A DNA stretch of 64,000 nucleotides from Arenibacter latericius DSM 15913 (GTDB taxonomy: Bacteria > Bacteroidota > Bacteroidia > Flavobacteriales > Flavobacteriaceae). Made by a program: the position numbers and the translations under genes. The notes under the pieces are model-generated. The model was given only the letters and a program-made list of their open reading frames with translations, searched no databases and was not told where the DNA came from. Where the stretch lies: positions 1 through 64,000 of the forward strand of contig NZ_AUKX01000031.1 in the NCBI RefSeq assembly GCF_000424985.1, given 5' to 3'. This document shows, one piece after another, positions 45,294-47,566 of this stretch; position 1 is the first letter of the stretch, and each line of letters begins with the position of its first letter.

Positions 45294-45806
45294 ATGAATA
45301 ATGCTAAAGATTCGCTTTCAGAAATTGATCTACAACATCTAGCACATTGCCTATCGCTAGCGGAAGAAGCAGTAAATGCTGGCGATAAGCCATTTGGATC
45401 TCTCCTTGTTAATCAAAAAAATGAGGTTATCGCATCGGCCCGAAATAGGGTGAACGAATTAAATAATTTAGCACATCCAGAAATTGAATTGGCACATTGG
45501 GCAGCAAAAAATTTATCGGCCGAAGAACGTAATAAAACAGTGATGTACACTAGTGGCGAACATTGTCCTATGTGTGCAGCAGCCCATGGATGGGTAGGTT
45601 TAGGAGGAATCGTTTACCTAAGCTCCGCTAAACAATTAAAAGAGTGGATGTTGGAAATGAAAGTTCCTGCAGCGCCTATTCAATTTTATCCCATTCAAGA
45701 TATCATTCCTAATATCCAGGTAAAGGGCCCCGCAAGTGGGAAGTTGTTAGAAGGAATAAAAGCCTTGCATAAGAAGTACTATGACTTGCAAGCTGATTTA
45801 GGTTAA
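45294..45806 (+). CDS. nucleoside/guanine deaminase family protein, HPE variant
   Basis: A 170-residue zinc-dependent deaminase of the CMP/dCMP-guanine deaminase superfamily. The metal site reads His61-Pro62-Glu63 (usual pattern H-A/V-E) and Cys91-x-x-Cys94 in GEHCPMCAAA (usual P-C-x-x-C). So the catalytic Glu and the three zinc ligands are kept, but the residue between His and Glu is Pro, and the Pro before the first Cys is replaced by His. The fold matches nucleoside deaminases (FGSLLVNQKNEVIASARN strand, YLSSAKQLKEW). Substrate could be guanine or another purine. It follows the MFS gene by 86 bp; a shared role in purine handling is possible but unproven. Confidence 0.85.
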   Translation: MNNAKDSLSEIDLQHLAHCLSLAEEAVNAGDKPFGSLLVNQKNEVIASARNRVNELNNLAHPEIELAHWAAKNLSAEERNKTVMYTSGEHCPMCAAAHGWVGLGGIVYLSSAKQLKEWMLEMKVPAAPIQFYPIQDIIPNIQVKGPASGKLLEGIKALHKKYYDLQADLG

Positions 45807-45946
45807 GGAAAAATATTGAATGTAATTGTCCTATTTTATAAGATAATTAGAATTGAGCAGCATTTTTATTTGAAAAATAAATTGATGTTTTAATTCTGAA
45901 TAGACAGAAATAGGTAGTAAGATTAGGTTGCAGTAGTCAAACAGAG

Positions 45947-46468
45947 TTAATTGCAGAGACTACAATCAGATTCTCCCACTAATTTACCTTCAAGATTTAA
46001 CTCATATTTACAACATTCATTAAATTTTTTGATAAGGACACTCTTCGCACGTCTAATCCGAGCTTTTACGTTAGCTAGGCTTATTCCTAATTCTGATGCT
46101 GCATCCTTCTGCTTCATCCCTTTTATATAAACCATAGTCATCACCGATTTATATTCTTCTGGTAGGTTCTCCAAAAAACGATCAAAACAACAGAAGTCCG
46201 AATAGCTTTCGGGTTGATCAACTGGAGATGGGTTTAAATCTTGGATTGTTTTATTCGACTTATTGAAATAATCATGTATTTCATTACGGACAATCTGAAA
46301 TGCCCAAGACTTAGCCTTGTCTTGTTGTTTTAATTGATGGATATTTTGGTGGATTTTTAAAAAGGTATTTTGCAATATATCATTAGTAGCATCTTGGTTA
46401 TGTACTTTTTTAAGAATAAAAAAATACATTTGAACATTATACTTACTCCATATGGTAGCAGTTTCCAT
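45947..46468 (-). CDS. sigZ: SigZ-type RNA polymerase sigma factor with Cys-rich tail
   Basis: A 173-residue ECF-like sigma factor. Region 2 (about 10-75) carries DILQNTFLKIHQNI and KSWAFQIVRNEIHDYF, region 4 (about 115-155) LPEEYKSVMTMVYIKGMKQ and DAASELGISLANVKARIRRAK. The C-terminal extension beyond region 4 contains Cys152-Cys153 and a final Cys169-x-x-Cys172 (SDCSLCN), which fits SigZ. Such cysteines could bind a metal or sense thiol oxidation. No anti-sigma gene is adjacent. The gene is preceded on the same strand, 48 bp upstream, by a 14-cysteine peptide gene, so the two are very likely cotranscribed. Confidence 0.85.
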   Translation of the reverse strand: METATIWSKYNVQMYFFILKKVHNQDATNDILQNTFLKIHQNIHQLKQQDKAKSWAFQIVRNEIHDYFNKSNKTIQDLNPSPVDQPESYSDFCCFDRFLENLPEEYKSVMTMVYIKGMKQKDAASELGISLANVKARIRRAKSVLIKKFNECCKYELNLEGKLVGESDCSLCN

Positions 46469-46516
46469 TTCTTATCTTAAAATTTTAAAAAGGTTGGACA
46501 CACGTCCAACCCCTTA

Positions 46517-46630
46517 TTAACAACAATCACATTTGCTGCATTCACACTTATCACACGGACATTGATTCTCTAAACAGTTTCCACAATTACATTTTTTGCA
46601 ATCGCAATTGGTACATTTACAATTATTCAT
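46517..46630 (-). CDS. 37-residue Cys-rich metallothionein-like peptide
   Basis: On the minus strand ATG at 46630-46628 opens a 37-codon frame ending TAA at 46517-46519. Fourteen of 37 residues are Cys, in repeated C-x-C and C-x-x-C spacing: NNCKCTNCDCKKCNCGNC, then LENQCPCDKC and ECSKCDCC. Remaining residues are mostly Asn, Lys, Asp and Glu, with a single hydrophobic residue, as in metallothioneins or other small metal-thiolate proteins. The regular spacing cannot arise by chance. It is complete (ATG and stop), lies 48 bp upstream of sigZ, and has an A/T-rich leader. I infer a metal-binding or thiol-buffering role linked to SigZ; an unusual RNA-level role is not excluded. No homologue search was possible. 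Confidence 0.75.
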   Translation of the reverse strand: MNNCKCTNCDCKKCNCGNCLENQCPCDKCECSKCDCC

Positions 46631-46717
46631 ATTTATATTCTTTAAGTTCTATATAGGTAGACCGAGAAGCTTCTAAAAAGATACAAATAATCCACTCTTT
46701 TTTTTAAATTTGGAATG

Positions 46718-47566
46718 TTAACCTTTAAATGTCCATGCAATAAACCGACTCTTTTTATTGCCTTGGTCCATATTAATGACCTTTACTGAAGTAGGATGGG
46801 TTTTGTTTATAGCGCGCTTTATATCTTTCAAATTTTCCTTTTGAGACACTAAGGAGGTAAACCAATGTATTTGATCTTTAAACTGCAGACTTTCAGTCGC
46901 CATTTTTTTTATAAATGCGGTTTCTCCACCATTGTACCATAGTTCATTGGAGAGTCCGCCAAAATTTTGAGAATCTTTTTCTTTTAGCCCAAGATTATGA
47001 ACCTTGCGCTTGTTGCTGCGTACTGCTTCTGATTTATTCTTAAAAAATGGAGGATTACATACCACAACATCAAATACATCATCAGGGTGCACAATATGTT
47101 CTAATATTTTATTTTTAAAGCGTTGGTGGCGTAATTCTATTTTTTCTAAAACTTGATTATTCTCAATAATGATTTCGGCGTTTTTCAGGGAAGCTAAACT
47201 CACTTCACTTCCGGTACACTGCCAATTAAAGTGTTGGCTACCTAAAATAGGATATATCATACTAGCACCAGTACCAATGTCTAATAACCGAATCTTGCTT
47301 TTTGGAATTAAGTCGGAAACATACAATAGATAGTCAAGCCGCCCTGGTATGGGAGGACAAAGATTATCCTCAGGGATATCCCAAAAATTAAGTCCGTAAT
47401 GCAGTTTTAGTATGGCGGTATTCAATGCCTTTACAGCATTCTTATTTCCAAATTTTATTGTTTTATTCCCATACTTATTTACAAAAACAAAGTCTTTTAA
47501 TTCGGGATGTTTTAAAATCAACCTATCAAAATCATAATCTTCAATAAAGGGGTTTTTTAAATGCAT
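46718..47566 (-). CDS. rlmF: 23S rRNA (adenine1618-N6)-methyltransferase
   Basis: A 282-residue SAM-dependent methyltransferase of the RlmF family that modifies A1618 of 23S rRNA. The N-terminal extension HLKNPFIEDYDFDRLILKHP and KFGNKNAVKALNTAILKLHY, then FWDIPEDNLCPPIPGRLDYL, is specific to this family. The SAM-binding motif is LLDIGTGASMIYP (about 93-105), and the catalytic N-P-P-F is in VVVCNPPFF (about 170). The C-terminal GGETAFIKKM and FTSLVSQKENL complete the match. It is followed on the same strand by the P1 peptidase upstream, with 8 bp between. Confidence 0.94.
   Translation of the reverse strand: MHLKNPFIEDYDFDRLILKHPELKDFVFVNKYGNKTIKFGNKNAVKALNTAILKLHYGLNFWDIPEDNLCPPIPGRLDYLLYVSDLIPKSKIRLLDIGTGASMIYPILGSQHFNWQCTGSEVSLASLKNAEIIIENNQVLEKIELRHQRFKNKILEHIVHPDDVFDVVVCNPPFFKNKSEAVRSNKRKVHNLGLKEKDSQNFGGLSNELWYNGGETAFIKKMATESLQFKDQIHWFTSLVSQKENLKDIKRAINKTHPTSVKVINMDQGNKKSRFIAWTFKG

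Follow-up and report, generated by a model that had tools for sequence, protein, structure and literature searches.

CorE and CorE2 of Myxococcus xanthus (former ECF44, now ECF238) are described, in the passages cited here, as metal-gated ECF sigma factors without an anti-sigma factor, with a CXC motif in the linker and a Cys-rich C-terminal domain that controls activity (PMC8999054, PMC3107203); in CorE this domain has six Cys in 38 residues (PMC3107203). In the smtA-smtB (cyanobacteria), bmtA-bxmR and mymT-ricR systems, according to parts of two publications, a metallothionein is controlled by a metal-sensing regulator whose gene adjoins its own or whose regulon includes it (PMC7387436, PMC10141476), and few bacterial metallothioneins, two as of 2020, are listed there as having a studied function (PMC7387436). 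The regulators of these three systems are repressors, whereas at the locus reported here a metallothionein-like peptide shares its operon with a putative activating sigma factor. A literature search of open-licence papers found no description of a SigZ-metallothionein pair: metallothioneins near repressors and metal-gated ECF sigma factors were known already, and what is new with respect to that literature is a metallothionein-like peptide and a putative sigma factor in one operon.

The window, i.e. the whole stretch of DNA analysed (64,000 nucleotides of Arenibacter latericius DSM 15913, contig NZ_AUKX01000031.1), contained on its minus strand a 37-codon gene (46517..46630) for a peptide, MNNCKCTNCDCKKCNCGNCLENQCPCDKCECSKCDCC, of which 14 of the 37 residues were Cys in CxC and CxxC spacing; small size and such Cys-richness are metallothionein traits. 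After a gap of 48 bp followed the gene of a SigZ-like ECF sigma factor of 173 aa with regions 2 and 4 (45947..46468, minus strand). A preliminary description of the window had pointed out this short ORF upstream of a SigZ-like gene, and the ORFs of the window confirmed it. In a codon alignment of 15 sequences, all 14 Cys columns of the peptide were invariant (11 of 14 in a 13-sequence set), and both TGT and TGC were used at 12 of the 14. The variable sites at codon positions 1, 2 and 3 numbered 9, 11 and 33 of 37, respectively, and the median dN/dS was ~0.09 (40 of 105 pairs, with 0<dS<2), indicating that the ORF is a real coding gene. A chance ORF was ruled out by the same codon pattern and dN/dS, together with the presence of this ORF beside the orthologous sigma gene in 16 of 16 genomes. 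Among 80 loci (L088–L167, 830 kb), 49 short Cys-rich ORFs (20–60 aa, at least 9 Cys, at least 24% Cys) were detected, never more than one per locus.

Neither Pfam nor NCBIfam contained a family that matched the window peptide up to E=1, and no PDB chain matched it by sequence; the peptides of L169, L155, L123 and L017 matched no Pfam family, and those of L155, L123 and L017 no NCBIfam family up to E=0.1. The peptide adds a metallothionein-like family missing from the Pfam and NCBIfam copies searched. A dense array of CxC and CxxC is typical of metal clusters, and the peptide would be expected to bind metal.

Among NCBIfam families, SigZ was the best match of the sigma factor and covered nearly the whole protein, yet the scores (143.9 of 212 bits for NF007215 and 131.6 of 168.65 for TIGR02959) lay below the NCBI cut-offs, and so the protein is called SigZ-like only, as it had been from the start. 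PF04542 and PF08281/PF04545 were above gathering, corresponding to ECF regions 2 and 4, and the Pfam scan listed no match to region 3. The protein had a pair of Cys in the linker (C93-C94) and four in the tail (C152-C153 and C169-x-x-C172), its C-terminus ending in ...NECCKYELNLEGKLVGESDCSLCN. Across 50 sequences from 49 of 53 loci (L170, L181, L187 and L221 were omitted), C93, C152, C153, C169 and C172 were invariant and C94 nearly so; L187, one of those omitted, was without the last tail Cys. An AlphaFold model (mean pLDDT 79.1, pTM 0.42) placed, with modest confidence, two short strands between the CC and the CxxC of the tail.

Compared with what the cited passages report of CorE and CorE2, the present sigma factor likewise had no anti-sigma gene next to it and carried Cys in the sigma2-sigma4 linker, where it contained CC or a single C in place of CXC. 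Its C-terminal tail, which may correspond to the CorE extension, was short, with four Cys against six in 38 residues. Another difference is the neighbouring output, a metallothionein-like peptide, and the pair is predicted to be auto-regulated. By analogy, the sigma factor may work like CorE and be gated by metal, though CXC is lacking. From the SigZ family itself (TIGR02959/NF007215) it differed by its CxxC tail, its peptide partner, its position in a separate clade and its scores below the cut-offs.

Whether the pair is conserved had been named as the decisive question, with a search for co-occurrence and spacing as the way to answer it. The answer was yes. All 16 close sigma orthologues (in 15 of 18 Arenibacter genomes and in G048) carried the peptide with 14 Cys. 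Of 349 genomes of the family, 90 had a SigZ-like sigma factor at E<=1e-25 and 42 had the peptide; in 41 of these 42, G278 being the exception, the sigma gene lay 18–128 bp downstream of the peptide gene. The pairing also followed the tail of the sigma factor: of the 117 distinct SigZ-like ORFs found at the studied loci, the peptide was upstream of 74 of the 76 with a CC-x-CxxC tail and of 4 of the 41 without such a tail. In these four, the tail was lost or truncated (L063, L125) or the peptide was a different one of 58–59 aa (L155, L156). The two exceptions among the tail-bearing ORFs were L073 (G281) and L120, the locus of which contained stop codons and a shortened peptide. Re-inspection of six high-scoring sigma genes found the peptide overlapping an over-extended sigma start in five, L073 again being without it.

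The pair was present in 53 of 56 named Bacteroidota/Balneolaceae loci (the non-Bacteroidota matches L219, L222 and L224 were set aside), including Brumimicrobium, Roseivirga, Echinicola, Portibacter, Pedobacter and Balneolaceae. When 296 genomes were drawn evenly from the phylum, nine proved to have the peptide, three of them outside the family; two of these three had both the sigma gene and the promoter described below, and the third, L310, had neither. In a tree of the sigma factors (rows below 90 bits, as well as L120 and L125, were left out), those linked to the metallothionein-like peptide formed one clade (MT clade), except for the long-branch row L030, with two parts bearing 14-Cys and 11-Cys peptides. 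Since they form one clade, the above counts are not independent, and common ancestry accounts for much of the co-occurrence; how deep the association reaches, with sigma factors down to 31% identity, is a stronger argument than the counts. Peptide genes without a sigma gene were seen at L157 (6806–6949), L188 (4001–4144), L208 (4001–4117), L192 (40–159) and L310.

A sequence of the form TG[T/C]ATC[T/C]TTTT, a nearly fixed spacer and GTCT was located ~31 bp before the ATG of the peptide gene. In the window this SigZ-type promoter, assigned by motif match (46657..46685, minus strand), had the -35 sequence TGTATCTTTTT from 46685 downwards and the -10 sequence GTCTAC at 46662–46657, and it was the sole zero-mismatch match to KTATCYTTTN13GTCTMC in its genome (G000). 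A strict pattern matched 93 of 118 rows and the broader TG[T/C]ATC[T/C]TTTT-N-GTCT matched 112 of 117 sigma-linked modules; variants of the promoter were recognisable by eye in the remaining five (L003, L046, L079, L155 and L156). The promoter was found in none of the three sigma-less Bacteroidota peptide genes with enough upstream sequence (L041 = G278, L188 and L208). Of 944 control windows, 12 contained it; these controls were the 140 bp ahead of ORFs of 150 aa or longer from the same loci, with sigma genes not removed. The scan comprised 122 modules, two of which belonged to neither group, L224 with no sigma gene and no promoter and L123 with the sigma gene upstream and the promoter present; L192, with too little upstream sequence, was not counted. 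Within Arenibacter (18 genomes), the exact site was at the module in 14 of the 15 genomes with the sigma gene, G003 having one mismatch, and the three genomes without the sigma gene had no exact GTATC-type site. The -35 sequence differed by clade, TGTATC occurring with 14-Cys modules and TGCATC with 11-Cys modules. Judging from this co-occurrence, the module promoter is probably recognised by its own sigma factor. According to a passage of PMC9723704, a CGT box found at -10 in Flavobacterium psychrophilum was interpreted as pointing to an ECF sigma factor.

A larger Arenibacter regulon was considered and rejected, since sites with at most one mismatch were not above a reversed-pattern control (8 versus 6 in G000, and 112 versus 140 in the 18 genomes). 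Of the seven other sites in G000, five overlapped long ORFs and two were intergenic with no ORF within 150 bp. One of these five (L287, 1569–1596), with one mismatch, lay at the very start of its ORF; divergent genes flanked it, a 186-aa ORF began 140 nt further on, and a near-identical site was present in G007; this is possibly a second target, though a doubtful one, or a chance match. A scan for consensus sigma-70 promoters gave 4 against 5.1 expected. Eleven identical copies of TTATCTTTTAAGAAGACAAACAGTCTAT were seen at eleven places of one genome (G181:C1); they probably represent a repeat that has no relation to the promoter.

Between the two genes of the window (46487..46511, minus strand) was a hairpin, GGTTGGAC-GTGT-GTCCAACC, followed by TTTTT and resembling an attenuator or terminator. 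Its stem covaried: over 15 distinct sequences, 98.7% of the cells of its 10 pairs were paired and four pairs were changed on both sides, compared with at most 60.3% paired in slid controls. The T-run was weak in most relatives, and a consensus terminator scan did not list the hairpin. It may act as a partial terminator or attenuator.

The pair was flanked upstream by rlmF (46718–47566, minus strand, above the NCBIfam cut-off) and downstream by a convergent deaminase-like gene (45294–45806, plus strand). No anti-sigma-like gene adjoined it, which bore out the preliminary description on this point, and no known RNA was found in 45800–46800. Among ORFs of at least 90 codons within 4 kb at the 56 named loci, no third gene was conserved widely across genera; the sigma gene alone recurred widely (53 loci), and other ORFs were found at no more than nine loci (in Arenibacter only) or no more than four across genera. 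A cluster with TonB-receptor genes recurred in 3 of the 56.

Sister SigZ-like sigma factors of Flavobacteriaceae resembled the present one in promoter type, a downstream site being found by pattern at 14 of the 39 SigZ-like genes outside the MT clade (25 were without), and in that many of their tails hold Cys. They differed in that most had no CxxC, their outputs were enzymes or transporters, and the -35 was mostly TGCGTC or TACGTC instead of TGYATC. Genes beside such a site were arsM (above cut-off in scans of L124 and L129, and assigned by resemblance at L137), a DUF2703 gene (found by scan at L140 and by resemblance at L144), genes for an ArsO/YpdA-like flavoprotein (L141) and an ArsE-like thioredoxin (L142), both below NCBIfam cut-offs, phzF (L134, scanned; L138 and L139) and patB (L151). 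ArsI/CadI beside L126 was above cut-off and ArsP_1 beside L146 passed Pfam but not NCBIfam; neither locus had a site by this pattern. In one SigZ-like clade, all 11 rows (L020, L128, L131–L134, L136, L138, L139, L143 and L149) had a phzF-like neighbour, scanned at L134 and by resemblance at the others; a PhzF isomerase as partner has no evident link to metals, and this clade is thus an argument against reading all of these sigma factors as metal sensors. Several sister loci had a TGCGTCTTTTT...GTCT site between the sigma gene and its neighbour, and the sister genes L148 and L028 adjoined arsenic-type, flavoprotein or DUF2703 genes by resemblance only.

Three loci outside the MT clade also had Cys-rich peptides. 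In L123, one site preceded sigZ and a second one preceded the gene, further downstream, for a 45-aa peptide with 11 Cys; L155 and L156 had a variant site before their peptides. As these loci occupied two separate positions in the tree, SigZ-like genes have probably acquired Cys-rich peptide partners on more than one occasion. The sigma gene of G281, which had no peptide, followed a tRNA-Arg gene; here (L297, 5578–7797) an exact SigZ-type site was present 21 nt before the neighbouring convergent gene for a TonB-dependent receptor.

We consider it probable that the pair is a self-regulated, anti-sigma-free, CorE-like metal(loid)-stress module with a metallothionein as output and negative feedback. 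A thiophilic metal(loid) would be bound by the linker CC, the CC after sigma4 and the terminal CxxC of the sigma factor, gating it as in CorE; the active sigma factor would transcribe its own operon from TGYATCYTTTT-N-GTCTMC. Most transcription would serve the first gene, that of the metallothionein-like peptide, and the intergenic hairpin would let only part of it reach sigZ, so that the sigma factor stays low. The peptide would then accumulate and bind metal, free metal would fall and the sigma factor would be switched off. Candidate signals are As(III), suggested by the neighbours of the sister genes, and Cd, Zn or Cu. Against this reading speak the linker, with CC or a single C where CorE has CXC, the 25 sister genes lacking a downstream site, the 11 phzF neighbours, the five peptide genes that have no sigma gene, the weak T-run of the hairpin in most relatives and the part of the co-occurrence that is due to common ancestry.

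A metal or thiol circuit without an anti-sigma factor had been proposed in the preliminary description, and this part is favoured by the CorE-like cysteines and by the arsM, ArsI/CadI and ArsP-type neighbours of the sister genes. It had further been suggested that the peptide takes the place of an anti-sigma protein, buffering or delivering metal or competing with the sigma tail for it; as a direct regulator, it would bind the sigma tail, or give metal to it or remove it. The near-obligate pairing of two Cys-rich partners would suit such direct regulation, but the peptide gene is the one next to the SigZ-type promoter and the conserved hairpin stands before sigZ, so the peptide looks like an abundant output and a feedback sink. 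Other genes replace the peptide in sister clades, the sigma factor at L297 is without it, and five peptides have no sigma factor. Direct regulation by the peptide is therefore unlikely, and less likely than feedback by an output.

A circuit for thiol or disulfide stress, with the sigma cysteines as a redox switch and the peptide as a thiol buffer, not a metal store, appears rather doubtful. The conserved features are indeed cysteines, and sister clades pair SigZ-like genes with the ArsE-like thioredoxin and the ArsO/YpdA-like flavoprotein (below NCBIfam cut-offs), but arsM, ArsI/CadI and ArsP_1 beside sister genes and a CDF cassette (see below) point to metal(loid)s, as does the metal-cluster type of the CxC/CxxC array. 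It is quite improbable that the sigma factor is not metal-gated and is controlled in transcription or stability only, its cysteines being structural zinc ligands and the peptide a zinc store or general stress output. CC-x-CxxC could be a zinc knuckle, to which the two strands of the model might belong; against this, sister SigZ-like sigma factors without CxxC indicate that CxxC is not needed for such a sigma factor, and the site before its own operon would imply auto-activation that needs a gate.

Under the feedback module preferred here, SigZ-like sigma factors gain a concrete, testable signal class, and the pair would be a putative metal sensor that consists of two genes, is defined by its promoter, can be transferred and carries its own feedback. 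More tentatively, and with rather less confidence, the SigZ-like sigma factors of Bacteroidota might form a broad, hitherto unrecognised family of anti-sigma-free, Cys-tailed metal(loid) sensors with matched -35 sequences and one-operon regulons (metallothionein, arsM, ArsI, ArsP, TonB receptor), of which the metallothionein version would be a portable, self-wired cassette moved between orders in an integron-like array.

Signs of mobility were seen in Roseivirga spongicola (L169) and Psychroflexus tropicus (L170), the modules of which were 97.8% identical over 804 bp. The shared piece began shortly ahead of the promoter, near CCGTTGGCA, and ended shortly beyond sigZ, near TGCCAAC. A plasmid home of the module was considered and rejected: 14 plasmid records contained only distant SigZ-like matches, none above 35.5% identity. 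In L169, a tyrosine recombinase gene lay ~100 bp before the shared piece, matching NF040815 'recombinase/integron integrase' with 220.3 of 220 bits and TIGR02249 below cut-off, and the next cassette was a CDF cation-efflux gene with similar ends. The array thus appears integron-like, and its repeated ends presumably resemble attC sites. The stretches concerned were 2701–5793 of L169 and 694–1650 of L170; the array comprised recombinase, module, CDF gene and repeated end sequences. A 152-bp piece, with 87.5% identity, ended different units in the two genomes.
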